This document shows, in pieces, positions 996-57,527 of a stretch of DNA of 64,000 nt. How positions within the stretch are numbered: the first letter of the stretch is position 1; every line of letters begins with the position of its first letter. A model generated the notes under the pieces. That model saw only the letters and a list, made by a program, of their open reading frames with translations, searched no databases and was not told where the DNA came from. The DNA is from Diphasiastrum complanatum (Eukaryota > Streptophyta > Lycopodiopsida > Lycopodiales > Lycopodiaceae), in the NCBI GenBank assembly GCA_029204225.1, contig CM055107.1, positions 2,345,218 through 2,409,217 of the forward strand. Reading direction: 5' to 3'. The position numbers and the translations under genes were made by a program.

Positions 996-1555
996 TGTAG
1001 TGGGTTTCTTTCCTTGCCTATCCTCAACCCAAGATCTAATCAATCTAGCATCGAGGAGATGAAGTTAGTTGTCACACGTATAGATTCATTCCCATGAGAG
1101 CGATAGCATAGTTCAGATTTGAGCATGAATGGAAGATTCACATCTAATCCTTACATCCATTAACACTAGATTCACAATGAAGATAGCTTACTCTTTCTCT
1201 CTCTCTCCCTTTCTCTCTCATAAAAAGTATAAAAACATGCAATCCCAATAACAATCAGATCCAACAATTAGCAAAACACAATAAAAGCATAAGAGATGGA
1301 GGAAAAGTGATAGAGAGCAAGGACATTCATAAATCCATTTCACAAGAAAATCAATCTGCTTTATTGAAATGAAGATATGTCCATGTGTAGGAAACTCTAG
1401 TTTCCCCTTTTTATAATAGAGAGGAGGACCTTGGCCTCTGAATCCTATTGGTCCATTTCTGCCTCCCTAATTATTCAAATTTAAAAAAGAGTGGGAACCA
1501 TCCAAATTGGAGGGAAACCCAACTTTATTCACTAACTTGACATTTAGGTCACAAG
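996..1555 (-). repeat. truncated LTR of gypsy G1
   Basis: This is a close copy of the LTR at 5119-5846. It starts with the same TGTAGTGGG and keeps the CT-rich tract and the AATTTAAAAAAGAGTGGGAACC block. On the right it stops at GACATTTAGG and passes straight into gag-protease sequence (TCACAAGTATGATCC). About 160 bp that the full LTR carries on that side are missing. On the minus strand this is the 3' LTR of G1 with its 5' end deleted. Confidence 0.75.
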
Positions 1556-3894
1556 TATGATCCGTTGTTGATGACTCATCATCCTCTTTTTGAACCACTG
1601 GTTTGATAGTCCAAGTCACAGGATCAACCTTAACTGCACGTTCACGATTTTCAAAAGCGATTTTCCCAGTACCCCAGTTATGAATTACTTGCGCAACTCA
1701 TAACCGTGGGCGTCCCAATAGGACTCGGTAGACATTTGGTGCTTCTGGTAAGTCCATTACTACAAAAGTAATGACAAACTGTACTCCGGCAATTCTGACA
1801 GGTATATCTTCAACCATTCCTTGCGGATCAAGTGTTGTTTGATCAGCTAGCTTAATGGCAAAAGTCGCAGGTTTTATCTTTGTAAGGCCCCATTTTTCAC
1901 ATAGCTTTGTAGAAATCAGGAACCGCCATCTATCACAGCTGCTTCATTAGAAAATTGTCTATGCTGTATCGCCAGGGTGATATTTTTTTGTTCACTTTCC
2001 CAAGCTGCTTCGACATGGAGTACTTCATTAGATTCTTCAAATCCAGCACAAAAAAGTGGCTCCTGATGGACTTTTGGTTCAGGTTGAGTTAACTTTTGCG
2101 CTAATACTTCTTTTGCTTTTGGCACCAACTTCAGGAACTCTCCTAGTGAAATATTGATCTTACTAGATAAAATATTCATGAGCAGTTCTGTTTGCGGTGC
2201 TTCCGGTTCAGTCATCTTGAAGGGTTCTTTATGATGATGCAACTGAGAATTCATATTTGTATGTGAATATTCCGATGACTACAATGGTGAAGAATCTAGC
2301 AGCTTCAAGCTTCTCTTCTTCTTGCAGATGTTTAATCCACTGCCTCATATCCTGATATCTTCTTTTTTCTGCAGAGATTTTGATAGACTCTAGATGCTGT
2401 TAGTATATCAGTTAATGGTAAATATTGGATTTGCTACCAGTTCTTTCTACTTCTGTGCTCTGGTGACCACCATCAAGGGTACACTTGGTTTACTCTGAGC
2501 TACTGGTCTTTACTTGATTGTTATCAAACTTACAAGAGCTATAGCCGGTGGTGGCTTCGGTTTTGCTAGACACTCCTTATAGCAATGTCCATAACCACAG
2601 TCATGACAGAATGGTACAATTTTTTTTTTATTTGGACATTCTGCAACTCTGTGATTTTCTCCACATGTGAAGCATCCAAGTGGTGCTCTGGTCCAGTTTC
2701 TAGATGCTTGTTGCTGCGCGACAACATAAATAGCATATTGGTCTAAAGATCCACCTTCTTGATCATTACCATAGTTCCATTGCTCGGCACTTATATAAGG
2801 TTCTGGTTCCATCAGATTGGTAGAAGGAGCGAGGTGCTTTGGTGGGGCAGGTAAGGCTAATCGTTCCGGGTATCCAAGAGCAGATTGTCGAGGACTAGTT
2901 GTCGAATTTCCTCCATAATGTGGTTTTCGATATCCCATCTGCGCATACCGTTGCTCCGAGGATTGAAATTGCAAAAAGCAGTCTCATGATCAGGCAAATT
3001 ACACAAATGGCATATACTGATTTCCATTCGTTTTTTCAATTGAAGACACTCATTCACTTTGTGATTTCTTGTACAAATAAAACACCAGACATTTTCCCTG
3101 GTAGAAAAAGTCTTTGCAAAATTCTCAGATTCCTTGTTTGCTTGTCCATGAAAATCTTCCAATGCTTTGATCTTCTCATCAAATTGCGATTGTAACTTTT
3201 CCATTTGTTTCTGTTGGTTCTTCTCGAATTTTTCGAACTCATTGAGCATCATTTCTGCAGTAGCGTTGACATTCATTGATGCAATAGTGGTGGATGTCGT
3301 AGTGGTCTACCCTGCTGTATAAGGCAACATATTGATATTTGAATCATCGTCTGAATTTTCATCCTCCTCTCGAATTGCATCATCCATAGCATTTTGCAAA
3401 AGTGTATACTCATTATGGCGTTTCAGCTCACATCTGATCCTTTTAGGTAAACCTGACAAAAATCACATAATCATGACATTTTTGTTAATCAGCTCAGGTT
3501 CACACTCAGATCTGAGGCGTTTTACCCGTTCAATGTAATCTCGAACCATTTCTCACTTTCCCATTTTAATTTTACTTAAAAGTAGGAAAGGGTCTTCCAT
3601 AAACTTCTGAGGTTTGAACCGTGTGATAAGGACTCTTTTAATAGTCTCCCAATCTGTACGCTCAGTTTCATCTTGATTATAGTACCAATCTTGTGCTGCG
3701 TCTATTAAGGCCATAGGAAAAAGCTTAAGTTTATTTTGGGAAAAAATTTTGCCATAGACTTCACAAGATTCAGAATAGATCTGAAAAAATCTAACTGGAT
3801 CTGTTAATCCATTGTATTTGGGTAGATCCAAACAAGATGCTCTTCTAACAATGATTGGATTGACTTCCTGAGGAGCACCTCCAGGGGCAGCCAT
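1556..3894 (-). pseudogene. gypsy G1 gag and protease remnant
   Basis: The gag start is read at 3894 (MAAPGGAPQEVNP), followed by a retrotransposon-gag region with LPKYNGLTDPVRFF and AAQDWYYNQ. A Glu/Lys-rich coiled segment (about 3276-3100) follows, then four zinc knuckles in two pairs: CFICTRNHKVNEC, CHLCNLPDHETAFC, CFTCGENHRVAEC and CHDCGYGHCYKEC. The last part (2254-1916) matches the gag-protease linker of G2 and ends in VIDGGS, which resembles a retropepsin active-site region. The reading frame is broken at least three times. All reverse transcriptase, RNase H and integrase are missing: protease sequence joins the LTR at about 1555. Four knuckles is more than most gags have and may reflect a family trait or a local duplication. 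Confidence 0.75.
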
Positions 3895-26466: not shown

Positions 26467-26471
26467 GTTAG

Positions 26472-26625
26472 TACTAGAAAGTGTCAAGGCTATAGCCCTT
26501 GCACAATAGTCTAGGAACACAAATGGGTGAATAGCTCAATGGAAGAGCACCCCACCGGAATGGGGGAGGTCCTAGTTCAATCCCTAGCCTCCAACCACAC
26601 ACACCAAGTGTAAAAACTTTTCACA
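26472..26625 (+). repeat. TRIM 5' LTR
   Basis: 154 bp, starting TACTAGAAAGTG (TG decayed to TA; the 3' copy has TGTTAGAAAGTG) and ending TTTTCACA. Shares AAGTGTCAAGGCTATAGCCC and CACACACCAAGTGTAA with the 3' LTR. Confidence 0.87.
26524..26590 (+). promoter_or_regulatory. tRNA-like RNA polymerase III promoter in the TRIM 5' LTR
   Basis: Box A TAGCTCAATGG (26532-26542) and box B AGTTCAATCCC (26574-26584) are 31 bases apart, within tRNA spacing. GCTC...GAGC forms a 4-bp D stem, and CCCCA/TGGGG can form an anticodon-like stem. A TTTT run (26618-26621) could terminate polymerase III. The T stem is imperfect in this copy (CCTAG on both sides of the loop). The parent tRNA is not identified. Confidence 0.75.
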
Positions 26626-26638
26626 TGGTATCAAAGGC
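26626..26638 (+). promoter_or_regulatory. TRIM primer-binding site
   Basis: TGGTATCAAAGGC directly follows the 5' LTR, close to the iMet-type TGGTATCAGAGC. Confidence 0.8.
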
Positions 26639-26686
26639 ATGGTTGTGGGTGTGGTCTAGGCGGGCGGTAGCTAAAAGGTCTATGCC

Positions 26687-26697
26687 TTGAGGGGGAG
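26687..26697 (+). promoter_or_regulatory. TRIM polypurine tract
   Basis: TTGAGGGGGAG directly precedes the 3' LTR start TGTTAG. Confidence 0.75.
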
Positions 26698-26842
26698 TGT
26701 TAGAAAGTGTCAAGGCTATAGCCCTCGCACAACACTCTAGGAACACAAATGGATGGGTAGCTCAATGGTAGACCGGAATGGAGGAGGTCCTAGGTTTAAT
26801 CCCTAGCCCAACCACACACACCAAGTGTAAGAAATTTTCATA
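26698..26842 (+). repeat. TRIM 3' LTR
   Basis: 145 bp, TGTTAG to TTTTCATA. Compared with the 5' copy it has a roughly 9-bp loss in the anticodon region and several substitutions, so the insertion is not recent. Confidence 0.87.
26751..26809 (+). promoter_or_regulatory. tRNA-like promoter in the TRIM 3' LTR
   Basis: Box A TAGCTCAATGG (26758-26768) is identical to the 5' LTR. Box B GGTTTAATCCC (26793-26803) sits in a perfect T arm, CTAGG-TTTAATC-CCTAG. The D-arm 3' strand and part of the anticodon arm are deleted. TTTT follows at 26835-26838. Confidence 0.72.
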
Positions 26843-26847
26843 GTTAG

Positions 26848-51094: not shown

Positions 51095-51750
51095 TGTGAA
51101 AAATACAGATCCTAAGTGGATCTAAACTCCAAGATCATTGGCTTGAATGCTTGCACTCCAAACTACATAAGCTAGGAATTGGCAACACATTCTATGCTAC
51201 CTAGAATGCAAAGAACTTGATCAAAAAGCATTTATCACAAATGGAAACTTCCATAGACATCAAGTGCGGCCCAAAATAGCATTATACAGTCCATAATACA
51301 TCAGCCTATCACTTTTGGAAAGCACCTAAGATCATACACAATAGCTTGAAGACAATACACACAACAATGCTCTCAATGGAGGAAGAAACAATGACAATGA
51401 TCTATTGATCTCAATGAAGCATACAAAAGGTTTCTCCAACCTGTTCTCCACGACTTCTCTACTATTTATGGATGAGGAAGATGACTCTCTCTCCTCTCTC
51501 TAGAAGGTACTTGACCCTAGATATTCCCTATATAGGAAAAATAGCTAAAAAATGGCTTATATGACCAAAATACATCAAAATGGTCTCATTTTGAAGGGTA
51601 TGAAGTTTGACACTTCATCATACTGAAAAAATACAGTAAATAAAAACATTGTGGCCTGGTTCACACGTGTGAAACTCCAGAACCAAAACTATTTACAATT
51701 TTAGCCAATTTAGGCCTCAAACTAGCTAGGAAATGTTGACAATTTTCACA
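51095..51750 (-). repeat. copia C5 3' LTR
   Basis: TGTGAAAAATACAG to ATTTTCACA on the plus strand. A CTCTCTCTCC patch (51488-51500) and TATTCCCTATATAGGAAAAA (51520-51540), which contains a TATATA-like promoter candidate read on the minus strand, lie inside. Confidence 0.95.
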
Positions 51751-54700
51751 CTCCCTCTTCAACATTGGATGCTAGTTTCAACATAGTCTTTGAGCACATT
51801 CCAAGATTAGATCTATGCATTAAATATAGGTCCTTTCCCAATGGTTTGGTGAAGATATCAGCCACACACTCCTTTGAAGAGACATGTTGAAGCTCCACCT
51901 CTTTGGCAATGACTTGATCTCTCACAAAATGGTGAGCAATCTCAATGTGCTTGCTCCTTGCATGAAAAACAGGATTGCTTGCCAAGCTTTGGGCTGAAAG
52001 GTTATCACAAAGTATGATTGGAGTCTTCTCTGGTTCCAGCAAGTGAATATCCAATAACATCCTCTTGATCCAAAGAATCTCCTTGGTGCATGTTGTTAAT
52101 GCCTTGTACTCGGCTTCGGTGGAAGATAGAGAGATAGTTGGTTGCTTCTTTGATAGCCATGAGACCACTCCATCTCCAAGATAGATTGCAAAGGCACTTG
52201 TTGACTTCCTATCCATTTGATCACCTGCAAAATCTGAATCTGAAAATCCACAAAGGTTAGGTGTAGTACCTCCATACAAGATGCCAAAATCTCTAGATCC
52301 CGAGATGTATCTAAGTACTCTCTTTCCTAGCTTCCAATGAGCCTCACTAGGATCTTGCATAAATTGACTTAGTTTACCAACCACAAAGCTTAGATCAGGT
52401 CTTGTGATGGTTAACCATATAAGAGATCCTATTAGCTTTCTATAGAGAGTAATGTCCTTGAAGGATCTTTCATTACTTCTTGTAGTTAGCTTTACATTTG
52501 ATTCCATAGGAGTAGAAACAACTTTACAATCTTCCATATGAAACCTTTTTAGAATAGAGTTAACATACTTTTCTTGACATATGAATGTAGATTTAGAAGT
52601 TCTAATAATCTCTATTCCTAAGATATAATGAAGTTTACCAAGATCTTGAATTTCAAACTCTCTTTTGAGTGCCATCTTGATTTCATCTATATCTAGATTG
52701 TTACCACCACTTAAGATAATGTCATCAACATAGATCAAAAGTAAAGTGATATCATTTTCATTCAATCTAAAGTAGAGAGAATGATCATACTCACTCATAA
52801 CAAAGTTTTGAGAAAGTAAGAAGGAATTGAGCTTAGCATACCAACTCCTTGGTGCTTGCTTTAGCCCATACAAACTCTTTTGGAGATAGCACACATGATT
52901 AGGCTCATCATGTGAAACATAGCCCTCGGGTTGCTCCATGTAAATATCTTCTTCAAGATCACCATTCAAGAAGGCATTAGTAACATCCATTTGCCACATA
53001 TCCCAATCATAAAGAGTTGCAAGAGAGATTAGGATTCGAATAGTTACCATCTTTGCCACGGGTGCAAAGGTCTCATCATAGTCAATACCATATTCTTGAG
53101 CATACCCCTTTGCCACCAACCTTGCCTTGTACTTGTTGATTGATCCATCTTGATTTGTCTTGATCTTGAAGATCCACTTACAACCAATTGCCTTCTTGTC
53201 CTTTGGAAGCTTTACCAACCTCCATGTGTTGCTTTTGATGAGTGCTTGATGCTCATGATCCATGGCTTGGATCCATTCCTTCTTTTGAATTGCTTCACCT
53301 ACACAAGTTGGTTCATCAAAAGAGGTAAGAAAAGCAAAGTTAGAGTTGTCCACCACTTGCTTTCCTTTTTCATCATAGGTTAGCCTTGATGGCTTAGCCC
53401 TTTGCCTTTGAGTCTTCCTTGAAGTTTGCTTTGGAGTGGCATCTCCATCTTCATCCAAGACATCTTGCACATCATGATGATTAGTAGGCACATCAACATC
53501 AACATCAACAACATTGGAAACATTCTCTTCATGAAAGATGACATCTTTACTTATGACAACTTTCTTTGTAGAAGGAATGTACACTTTGTAAGCCTTGCTT
53601 ACTTCACTATAGCCAACAAACACACCCTTCTTTAATGAAGGATCTTCTTTAGTTCTATCATCAAGTGTGATATTGACAAAACATGTACATCCAAAGATCC
53701 TACAATGCTTGACACTCGGCCTTCTACCATAAAGAACCTCATGAGGAGTTTTACCATCCAAGGAAGCACTTGTCCATCTATTACATAGATAGTTAGCACA
53801 TGCTAAAGCTTCCCCCCAAAAAGACTTAGCAAGATTAGCATGTAGTCTCATTGCCTTGGCACATTCACAAAGGGTTCTATTCTTCCTCTCGGCCACTCCA
53901 TTCTGTTGTGGAGTCCTAGGACTAGACATCTCCCTCTTAATCCCATGTGCTATACAAAAGTCTTTGAACCTATTTGAGGTGTATTCCCCTCCATTATCAG
54001 ATCTTAAGCATTTGATCTTTGTATTGAATTGGTTTTCCATTTCATTCTTGAACTTGACAAATGCAGCAAACACTTCATCCTTACTTTTAAGAAGATAGAT
54101 CCAAGTATACCTACTAAAGTCATCAATGAAAGTTGCATACATCTTTGCCCCACCATTGCTAGTTGTACTAGAAGAATGAATATCAGAATGCACAAGTTGA
54201 AAAGCTTCTTTAGATCTAGAAGTAGATCTAGAATAAGCAAGTCTATGAGATTTGGACAAGGCACAATGTTCACAAACACTATTGTTTGCAACAAGACTTT
54301 TAGGGAGACCAAGAACAAGCTCTTTCTTTGCCATTACCTCCAAAGATTTGAAGTTGGGATGGCCCAACCTCTTGTGCCAAACTTCTTGGTTTGTCAATTG
54401 CTCCCTAGCCATACATCCTTCATGATTAGAGATCACACATGCATCAAGCTTGAAAAGTTTACCATGCCTCCTACCTTGAGCAATCAAGGATCCACATTTA
54501 CTTATCAAACATGCATCTCCAATGAACTCCACATCAAGTCCTTTGTCAATCATTTGACTTACACTAAGCAAATTCTTAGTGATTGAAGGAATGTACAAAA
54601 CATTTTCAAGATTTGCTTTCCTATTTGTTGAAAGGGAAATAGGAATAGTGCCTATGCCTTTGATGTCACATTGACCATCATTTGCAGTGTAGATGATGTT

Positions 54701-55699
54701 ACCTTCTCCCTCATAAGACAATAAGGATGTACAGTATTCCTTATGTCTTGTCATGTGAGATGAGGCTCCACTATCAATCCACCAAGGATCATTATAATCT
54801 ATGTTGGCTAACAAACTTGAAGTCATAACAAGTGATTCACATGTGTTATGTTCTTCCTCATCTATTGTAAGATTTCCTTGCCTCTCTCCTTGCTCTCTTT
54901 TCTTCTTATAACATTCATTTGCAAAATGACCTTTTATCCCACAATAAAAGCACTTGAACTTTGACTTATTGTTCTTAGTAGAAGAGGAAGAGGAAGAGTG
55001 ATCATCATGATCAAAGTTACCACCTTTGGACCATTTCCCTTTGCCTTTACCTTTGCCCTTGAATTTGCCTTTTGTGAAGAAAGCCTCTTCACCTCCACCT
55101 TGCAAGGATGCACCATCAAGCTTTGATTGCAACCTATGTTCTTCAGCCAATAAGATTTCTTGCAAGTCAACCACACTTGGCAAGACTCTTTGAATGACAA
55201 AACTTTGCACAAGGTTAGCATGTTCATTTAGCAAACCATTCAACATAACTTGGACTATTTCACCATCTTTTATGTTCTCATCAATGCATGCTAAATCATC
55301 ACTTAGGGACTTAACTCTCAAGATAAATGCATGAGCACTTTCACCCTCTCTTTGCCTACTAGAAAATATTTGTCTCCTTAGGGTCAATACCCTAGATGTG
55401 GACTTTGATTCAAAGAGCTTCTTTAAGGCATTCCATGCCTCACTTGCACTTTGACACTTTCCAACTTCCTTGAGAAGTTCATTTGTAACATTCATTTTAA
55501 TGATATGAAGAGCCCTTTTGGCCTTCTTATCAAACCTTTGTTGCTCTTGAAGTGTGAGAGGTCTCTCTTCAATTTCTGCAACTATGTCCATGAGTTCATT
55601 CAACTCAAGTAAGGACTCCATCCTCACTTTCCAAGTAGAGTAGTTTGATGAACTCAACCTTTCACTAGACTCTAGCATGATCCCACCATTGGAAGCCAT
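51746..55699 (-). CDS. copia C5 gag-pol polyprotein
   Basis: 1,317 residues, uninterrupted. Gag (about 1-245, UBN2 type) is followed by a Gly/Lys linker and CCHC knuckle at 250-263 (CFYCGIKGHFANEC). Protease active site DSG at 309-311 (WWIDSGASS). GAG-pre-integrase and zinc finger have H442, H446, C476 and C479. Integrase triad is D506 (HSDIHS), D568 (RSDNGGEY) and E604 (GVAERKN). Reverse transcriptase at about 820-1065 has D905 and YVDD at 990-993. RNase H has D1154/D1156, SSTEAEY at 1193-1198 and CDN at 1231. Length and domain order are standard for copia. The stop TGA is formed by the first bases of the 3' LTR. It supplies replication and integration enzymes in virus-like particles and the nucleus. 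All catalytic residues are intact. Confidence 0.97.
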   Translation of the reverse strand: MASNGGIMLESSERLSSSNYSTWKVRMESLLELNELMDIVAEIEERPLTLQEQQRFDKKAKRALHIIKMNVTNELLKEVGKCQSASEAWNALKKLFESKSTSRVLTLRRQIFSSRQREGESAHAFILRVKSLSDDLACIDENIKDGEIVQVMLNGLLNEHANLVQSFVIQRVLPSVVDLQEILLAEEHRLQSKLDGASLQGGGEEAFFTKGKFKGKGKGKGKWSKGGNFDHDDHSSSSSSTKNNKSKFKCFYCGIKGHFANECYKKKREQGERQGNLTIDEEEHNTCESLVMTSSLLANIDYNDPWWIDSGASSHMTRHKEYCTSLLSYEGEGNIIYTANDGQCDIKGIGTIPISLSTNRKANLENVLYIPSITKNLLSVSQMIDKGLDVEFIGDACLISKCGSLIAQGRRHGKLFKLDACVISNHEGCMAREQLTNQEVWHKRLGHPNFKSLEVMAKKELVLGLPKSLVANNSVCEHCALSKSHRLAYSRSTSRSKEAFQLVHSDIHSSSTTSNGGAKMYATFIDDFSRYTWIYLLKSKDEVFAAFVKFKNEMENQFNTKIKCLRSDNGGEYTSNRFKDFCIAHGIKREMSSPRTPQQNGVAERKNRTLCECAKAMRLHANLAKSFWGEALACANYLCNRWTSASLDGKTPHEVLYGRRPSVKHCRIFGCTCFVNITLDDRTKEDPSLKKGVFVGYSEVSKAYKVYIPSTKKVVISKDVIFHEENVSNVVDVDVDVPTNHHDVQDVLDEDGDATPKQTSRKTQRQRAKPSRLTYDEKGKQVVDNSNFAFLTSFDEPTCVGEAIQKKEWIQAMDHEHQALIKSNTWRLVKLPKDKKAIGCKWIFKIKTNQDGSINKYKARLVAKGYAQEYGIDYDETFAPVAKMVTIRILISLATLYDWDMWQMDVTNAFLNGDLEEDIYMEQPEGYVSHDEPNHVCYLQKSLYGLKQAPRSWYAKLNSFLLSQNFVMSEYDHSLYFRLNENDITLLLIYVDDIILSGGNNLDIDEIKMALKREFEIQDLGKLHYILGIEIIRTSKSTFICQEKYVNSILKRFHMEDCKVVSTPMESNVKLTTRSNERSFKDITLYRKLIGSLIWLTITRPDLSFVVGKLSQFMQDPSEAHWKLGKRVLRYISGSRDFGILYGGTTPNLCGFSDSDFAGDQMDRKSTSAFAIYLGDGVVSWLSKKQPTISLSSTEAEYKALTTCTKEILWIKRMLLDIHLLEPEKTPIILCDNLSAQSLASNPVFHARSKHIEIAHHFVRDQVIAKEVELQHVSSKECVADIFTKPLGKDLYLMHRSNLGMCSKTMLKLASNVEEGV
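51751..51760 (-). promoter_or_regulatory. copia C5 polypurine tract
   Basis: Minus strand GAAGAGGGAG directly precedes the 3' LTR start TGTGAAAA. It also encodes the last residues of the polyprotein. Confidence 0.85.
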
Positions 55700-56859
55700 G
55701 ATTCTAATGTTTCTTCAACTTTTAGGTTCTGTCCTAAAGCACTTAGCACTCACTTTTCTCTCAACAAATGATAGATAAAGAGATCTATGAAGATTTAGGA
55801 CCCTAAAACACTTCTATCTTGAACCTAGATGGTTTCCAAGCATAGAAAGGAAGATTGAAACACATGCAACACTTTGCACACACTAAGAATGGATTACAAA
55901 ATCAAACCAACCTGAACACACTCTTGCTTAAGCTCTCAAACTTTCCAGCAAGTGACCAAATCAAGTTATGGTGTGAAGAGTTACTTGCATTCTTAGAAAA
56001 TACCCAAAACTAGGATGCCAAGATTACCTAGTAATGAACAAACTTGATCAACATATGATCAACACACTAAGATATTGATTCAACCTGTAAAACCACATGT
56101 AAACCACACTTCTAAAAGTTTATAAACTCCAGCAAGTGATAAATACAAGATTTAGAGGTGAATGAATGAGCACACTTAGTGAATCACAAGACTAGCTTCA
56201 CTATCTTGTCAAATCTTGGTGTTTAGATGTAGATCTAAGATCACTTCACATGAGAATGTTCCTCAACCTGTTAAGAACCTGAAAACACACTTGCATAATG
56301 GTTAACACCTTCCAGCAAATGCTCCAATCAAATTACATAAGGAGAGTTACTTACATGCTCAACAAAGTACACCAAAATTTATGCCAAAATTGATGACAAT
56401 CTTTACAATATGCTCTTCACAATGGAGCTTGCAATATGTTCACCCAAAAAAGGGGATCTTTCATCAAAATGGGAGCTTTGCTCAGCCTTTAGGAGAATTA
56501 CAACTCACTCAAAAGAGCATTTGTCATCCACTTAAGGAGAAGTTTCATCCACTTAAGGAGAGTGTTCATCCAAGAATGGAGATTGTCAACAATAGGATTG
56601 AAAAGAACATTGTTAGTATTGAATATGCACAAGCCTCACAATCACAAATGATTAGGTGTTATGATCTGATCCAAAATAGTTTCTTTTCAGCCTCTGATCT
56701 TCAATAGACCTGAAATATGCTTTTGATCCACAAGTTCAACTCACAAAACAAAGGTTAGTAAGATTTGATCAACAAAGCAATGCAAAATCATGCTAGAACT
56801 TGATCAAACATCCAAATATCACCAAAAATGGAATACTTACTGTAAATAGAAGCCAACCA
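55700..56859 (-). other. copia C5 leader with degenerate tandem repeats
   Basis: 1.16 kb between primer site and start codon. From about 55905 to 56360 three imperfect units recur, each with CAACCTG, an ACCACA or ACACAC run, TCCAGCAAGTG or CCAGCAAATG, and GAGTTACTT. At 56515-56560 CACTTAAGGAGAAGTTTCATC repeats twice with small changes. A plus frame here (56381-56707) looks fortuitous. Confidence 0.7.
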
Positions 56860-56871
56860 GTTCTGATACCA
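56860..56871 (-). promoter_or_regulatory. copia C5 primer-binding site
   Basis: Minus strand TGGTATCAGAAC starts with no gap after the 5' LTR. It is the iMet-type site with one change (A for G at position 11). Confidence 0.88.
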
Positions 56872-57527
56872 TGTGAAAAATACAGATCCTAAGTGGATCT
56901 AAACTCCAAGATCATTGGCTTGAATGCTTGCACTCCAAACTACATAAGCTAGGAATTGGCAACACATTCTATGCTACCTAGAATGCAAAGAACTTGATCA
57001 AAAAGCATTTATCACAAATGGAAACTTCCATAGACATCAAGTGCGGCCCAAAATAGCATTATACAGTCCATAATACATCAGCCTATCACTTTTGGAAAGC
57101 ACCTAAGATCATACACAATAGCTTGAAGACAATACACACAACAATGCTCTCAATGGAGGAAGAAACAATGACAATGATCTATTGATCTCAATGAAGCATA
57201 CAAAAGGTTTCTCCAACCTGTTCTCCACGACTTCTCTACTATTTATGGATGAGGAAGATGACTCTCTCTCCTCTCTCTAGAAGGTACTTGACCCTAGATA
57301 TTCCCTATATAGGAAAAATAGCTAAAAAATGGCTTATATGACCAAAATACATCAAAATGGTCTCATTTTGAAGGGTATGAAGTTTGACACTTCATCATAC
57401 TGAAAAAATACAGTAAATAAAAACATTGTGGCCTGGTTCACACGTGTGAAACTCCAGAACCAAAACTATTTACAATTTTAGCCAATTTAGGCCTCAAACT
57501 AGCTAGGAAATGTTGACAATTTTCACA
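56872..57527 (-). repeat. copia C5 5' LTR
   Basis: Same length as the 3' LTR; no difference was spotted on reading both. Ends TTTTCACA before target duplication AAGTC. Confidence 0.95.

Follow-up and report, generated by a model that had tools for sequence, protein, structure and literature searches.

The locus at positions 26472-26842 of the window raises the question of whether a miniature LTR retroelement carries a tRNA-derived polymerase III (Pol III) promoter in each of its two LTRs, and whether such an arrangement belongs to a single locus or to a family. The window is the whole stretch of DNA that we analyzed, namely 64,000 nt of Diphasiastrum complanatum (GCA_029204225.1, CM055107.1, positions 2,345,218-2,409,217, forward strand). 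The initial annotation had described a complete miniature LTR element here, and each of its parts was indeed located in the sequence, all on the plus strand, as a decayed TRIM of 371 bp. The 5-bp target site duplication GTTAG, found by inspection of the sequence and by the duplication script, flanks the element exactly on the left (26467..26471) and on the right (26843..26847). The 5' LTR of 154 bp (26472..26625) opens with a degenerate TACTAG in place of TGTTAG and ends in TTTTCACA, and it is followed by an internal region of 72 bp (26626..26697) that holds the primer binding site (PBS) TGGTATCAAAGGCATGG, beginning TGGTATCA (26626..26642), and the polypurine tract (PPT) TTGAGGGGGAG (26687..26697). 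The 3' LTR of 145 bp (26698..26842) lacks 8 nt in the anticodon arm of its tRNA-like module and ends in CATA. When aligned with each other, the two LTRs share 130 of 144 bases (90.3%), with 11 further gap positions, and no ORF of at least 120 aa overlaps this copy. The window copy is old, as seen in its diverged LTRs, its altered LTR ends, and the 8 nt missing from the 3' module.

Boxes A and B at tRNA spacing, together with a TTTT run shortly before the LTR end, had also been claimed for both LTRs, and they are present in both. In the 5' LTR, a tRNA-like module (26525..26593) contains box A TAGCTCAATGG (26532..26542) and box B AGTTCAATCCC (26574..26584), preceded by a TATA at -34 relative to the module (26491..26494) and by a CAA at -5 (26520..26522), a motif known upstream of plant tRNA genes, and followed by a TTTT that is a candidate weak Pol III terminator (26618..26621). 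The 3' LTR repeats this order, with TATA at -34 (26717..26720), CAA at -5 (26746..26748), the module (26751..26814), box A TAGCTCAATGG (26758..26768), box B GGTTTAATCCC (26793..26803), and TTTT (26835..26838). The box B core is altered in both LTRs, reading AGTTC and GGTTT. A sensitive local scan with the Rfam tRNA model gave 31.1 bits for the 3' module, above the gathering score of 29, and 22.5 bits for the 5' module, below it; the whole-window Rfam scan with fast filters at the gathering threshold returned zero tRNA matches, and ARAGORN called no tRNA in the whole window. The pattern TAGCTCANTGG-N20..45-GTTNAATCC, drawn up with the element already known, occurs exactly twice in the 64 kb, and none of 100 shuffles contained it. 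The TATA lies within a U3 near-palindrome, AAGGCTATAGCCCTT (ending ...CTC in the 3' LTR), at 26486-26500 and 26712-26726, whose columns vary little between copies (minority fraction about 0.01).

The element is one of many, which is what the initial annotation had set as a test. A search of the 1.74-Gb assembly (5176 contigs) gave at least 48 matches, the scoring having covered 40 of the 578 candidates, and the full-length matches measured about 370-377 bp at mostly 88-91% identity to the window copy; the query included the tRNA-like part, so that copies devoid of the module rank lower and could be missed. We retrieved 40 stretches, removed one (L040) that overlapped the array of L012, and added the window, which left 40 copies at 30 sites. 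The retrieved copies are 374-382 bp long, with LTRs of mostly 153 bp and internal regions of mostly 72-73 bp (range 69-74); having two short LTRs, a total length below 1 kb, a PBS and a PPT, and no coding capacity, they have the makeup of a TRIM. Exact 5-bp duplications flank 17 of the 30 sites and comprise 16 different sequences; the script alone found 16, and shifting the end of L023 by 2 nt added one more, with GTTAG on both sides. Three further sites match at four of five bases, and the other 10 have no good duplication, some of them being array members or adjoining other LTR elements. The identity between the LTRs of a copy, computed for 21 of the 30 sites, is 93.5-98.7% at the 20 retrieved sites vs. 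90.3% in the window copy, and therefore the window copy understates how recently the family was active. Of the 22 family sites listed, 12 have the PBS TGGTATCAGAGCCATGG, and the others differ from it by one or a few changes; we take this sequence to match the 3' end of the plant initiator tRNA-Met. Tandem arrays with shared LTRs were found on C6 (L030) and on C4 (L012/L040). The array of L030 (G000:C6:17887600-17890100) contains eight matches to the LTR, 129-156 bp long, and a ninth that is partial, and its internal regions are shared and partly deleted.

The tRNA-like module accompanies the family and is not limited to the window locus. The Rfam tRNA model matched all 40 LTRs at 20 sites with 38.5-61.4 bits, 39 of them from end to end, and a model of the module itself (R1) detected it at seven further sites and in the window, which brings the sites with a model-detected module in their LTRs to 28 out of 30, the remaining two (L037 and L047) lying outside these scans. 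Wherever it was mapped, it occupies a constant position in the LTR, and boxes A (TRGCY..YGG) and B (GGTTC), on which Pol III depends, are kept across the family. ARAGORN made calls in 25 of 28 loci, all of them tRNA-??? with a 2-nt anticodon except for one tRNA-Ser (L033), which indicates that the anticodon loop is abnormal and that the module differs from a normal tRNA. Within this family, which is young, the conservation of the boxes does not clearly exceed that of the other positions (minority fraction 0.008-0.038 vs. 0.027 overall), and the covariation of the cloverleaf equals that of shuffles. The cloverleaf pairs in 88.8% of cells, compared with at most 51.4% when it is slid along the alignment; folding did not favor it in four of five modules tested, and none of the five was more stable than its shuffles (z -0.03 to 0.45). 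We infer that the tRNA-like part serves as a promoter only, and a tRNA function is not expected of it. Among the Rfam matches to the LTRs there was tRNA but no 5S rRNA. The scan of the 20 sites also gave, in antisense, 18 matches to a plastid leader family, which fell far short of its gathering score and which we took as chance.

The signals around the module were surveyed in 55 modules from 30 copies, these being the ones that have the box A search word out of about 60 expected. TATA stands at -34 in 50 of them, CAA lies within -10 in 45 (44 of these having it at -5) and at -21, but not within -10, in the other 10, and a run of at least four T follows within 50 nt downstream in 53. By chance, in the window, TATA would be found at -40..-26 in 5% of cases and CAA within 10 nt in 21%. 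We suggest keeping in mind that these counts come from one inherited layout and are not independent, so their real weight is about that of one 1% coincidence. Plant tRNA genes are described as having a TATA element, a CAA at -1..-10, and a poly(T) of at least 4, with the TATA in only 22-32% of the genes, the CAA within 10 bases in 36-45%, and T runs averaging 5.0-5.4 (PMC11700998). Judged from the sequence, the order TATA, CAA, box A, box B, and T4 is the layout of a plant tRNA gene, and the tRNA-derived, Pol III-type promoter arrangement proposed for each LTR is supported. The T4 at the LTR end is retained in 54 of the 57 ends that were read, out of 60. This T4 sits within TTTTCACA, with which an ordinary Copia LTR in the window also ends, and for this reason it is perhaps a plain LTR end and not a chosen terminator. 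The T run needed for termination is given as 4 for human Pol III, 5 in fission yeast, and 6 in budding yeast, and read-through is common (PMC5356446).

The search with the R1 model covered 262,820 bases and found the module outside the first family at two places, both in L053, at 1141-1213 (+) and 3000-3072 (-). These belong to a second TRIM-like element at L053:1099-1358 (+) and to its inverted copy at about 2934-3161 (-), which have a related module in a different LTR. The module of the plus copy scores 49.8 bits and lies within an LTR of 144 bp; the LTR sequence is followed by TGGTATCAGAGCCAAG after one copy and by TGGTATCAGATCCAAG after the other, and TTGAGGGGGGG precedes it in the minus copy. 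Aligned to an LTR of the first family, the L053 module shares 59 of 72 bases (z 14, 500 shuffles). The U3 shares 30 of 36 aligned bases in a gap-rich alignment whose score is also reached by shuffles (z 3.1), and for the U5 side the figure is 16 of 28 (z 3.4). Both copies have CAA at -6 and AATAT at -36, and one has a T5, while the other has no T4. The two copies are inverted and rearranged, and no duplication was established for them. From these alignments, L053 is the best sign that the module may be kept while the remaining LTR turns over, and a separate capture from the same source could account for it as well.

Most likely, the window element is an old copy of a non-autonomous TRIM of the Helenus type (TRIMp3, see below), in which each LTR would hold a complete transcription unit like that of a plant tRNA gene, and we consider this reading probable. 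Its main competitor, unlikely but to be taken seriously, is an ordinary TRIM transcribed by Pol II, where the module would be a harmless passenger, left by an old SINE or tRNA insertion that became fixed in the founder LTR. The lack of excess conservation of the boxes within the family is what such a passenger would show, and the Copia LTR that also ends in TTTTCACA speaks in the same direction. Nevertheless, the module recurs with intact boxes in L053, where the other LTR parts align close to chance, the TATA and CAA stand upstream of it with the spacing published for plant tRNA genes, and the whole tRNA-like domain still gives its 38.5-61.4 bits in 40 LTRs, all of which argue against a mere passenger. 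Very improbable is a SINE or SINE dimer mobilized by a LINE through its tRNA-derived head and misread as a TRIM, given that, although the element is short and has a tRNA-derived region with boxes A and B, it also has two full LTRs, a PBS, a PPT, and TG..CA ends, together with the varied 5-bp duplications at 17 of 30 sites and the tandem arrays that share LTRs, whereas a SINE-like 3' tail is absent by eye from the window copy. Least credible of all is an independent SINE insertion into the LTRs of the window copy alone, a case raised by the initial annotation and not seen here, since 28 of the 30 sites have the module in their LTRs and, where mapped, in the same LTR position, although a search with a query that includes the module favors copies that have it.

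For the Helenus-type TRIM, a cycle can be proposed in which boxes A and B in the 5' LTR would be the site of Pol III assembly and transcription would begin close to the CAA, around base 50 of the LTR. The polymerase would sometimes pass the weak T4 at bases 146-149 of the 5' LTR and terminate on reaching the same T4 in the 3' LTR, and the product would be an RNA of about 325 nt with a U3 of about 49 nt, an R of about 100 nt, and a U5 consisting of CACA only. The presence of R at both ends of this RNA would permit the strand jump of the cDNA, reverse transcription would be primed at the PBS by initiator tRNA-Met, and enzymes of the Copia type would copy and integrate the element, thereby making the 5-bp duplication. 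RNAs ending at the first T4 would stop four bases short of the PBS and would be dead ends. The wider proposal is that of a lineage of tRNA-type TRIMs, represented by two or more families in a single genome. Each LTR in this lineage would be a complete plant tRNA gene unit, made up of TATA, CAA, boxes A and B, and T4, and transposition would depend on leaky Pol III termination. This proposal is a tentative one, which we hold to be possible but somewhat doubtful. If this reading of leaky termination is true, transcription would have to run through the weak T4 of the 5' LTR and yet end at the same T4 of the 3' LTR.

As for the enzymes, the window contains an intact-looking Copia on the minus strand (51095-57527), whose 656-bp LTRs are 100% identical and which has GACTT on both sides, with an ORF of 1317 aa (51746-55699, minus strand) that includes gag, integrase, and RT domains; this Copia is a very recent insertion. 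It shares with the TRIM 16 bases at the junction of LTR and PBS, TTTTCACATGGTATCA, and it may be considered a candidate helper, although only LTR-end and PBS bases are in common and nothing links it to this TRIM in particular. The 5-bp duplication, the PBS, and the PPT would be compatible with a Copia helper. Pfam gave nothing for two ORFs that do not look like transposable elements.

The initial annotation knew Cassandra as the parallel and took a tRNA-type counterpart to be novel, a claim that finds no support, because Helenus, comprising TRIMs with tRNA-derived sequence in their LTRs, was published by Kojima in 2024 together with TRIMp3, the class proposed for TRIMs having Pol III promoters (PMC10886601). 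Its suggestion of a new TRIM family stands in one part, the family being new, and falls in the other, the kind being already known: the D. complanatum elements are a new family of the published Helenus kind (PMC10886601). Like Helenus, they have tRNA-like sequence in both LTRs, a PBS and a PPT, boxes A and B that are kept, and a module that is abnormal as a tRNA, and their 5-bp duplications have the length described for the Helenus of plants and fungi. In the Helenus table of PMC10886601, Selaginella moellendorffii is the only plant, and the elements described here extend the tRNA-type TRIMs beyond it. Compared by description only, Helenus-1_SMo has an LTR of 120 bp and an internal region of 85 bp vs. 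153 and 72-73 bp here, and our elements constitute another family in another host, with a PBS resembling the 3' terminus of initiator tRNA-Met. The TATA and CAA upstream elements present here are unmentioned for Helenus in the text of PMC10886601 available to us. In the open-access literature, as far as its accessible text goes, Helenus was found in PMC10886601 and mentioned in PMC12859917, with no flowering-plant Helenus among the results.

The resemblance to Cassandra is that of a plant TRIM with a Pol III gene in its LTRs and with tandem arrays, the difference being 5S rRNA in the LTRs of Cassandra vs. a tRNA-like sequence here. Tandem arrays with shared LTRs are known for Cassandra and other plant TRIMs (PMC4717578). 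The plant TRIMs of Gao (2016; PMC4717578) and Wukong (PMC4528315) are alike in the anatomy of LTR, PBS, and PPT and in their tandem arrays, and 5-bp duplications are common to those of Gao and the family here; no tRNA-like LTR part was seen in either paper, and the word tRNA was not found in their main texts. Inflated counts of tRNA genes have been noted for rust fungi (Kojima 2024; PMC10886601), and the counts in the present genome and in others with such LTRs could be inflated likewise. With 578 first-look candidates, highly alike LTRs, and a clear promoter layout, the family is open to testing.

Some minor observations concern the surroundings of individual copies. One of the L053 copies adjoins sequence that resembles, by eye, a Copia reverse transcriptase. 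In L013, L017, and L029, the TRIM adjoins a PBS-like word (TGGTATCA/TGATACCA) joined to sequence of another LTR element, with no target duplication at these junctions and in both orientations, and these could be cDNA-cDNA joins made before integration. In L051, at about 5229 (+), a very short internal-like stretch has TGGTATCAGAGCCATGG and then GGAGGAG ahead of TGTTAAAAATTCAC, which suggests another tiny LTR element beside the TRIM.
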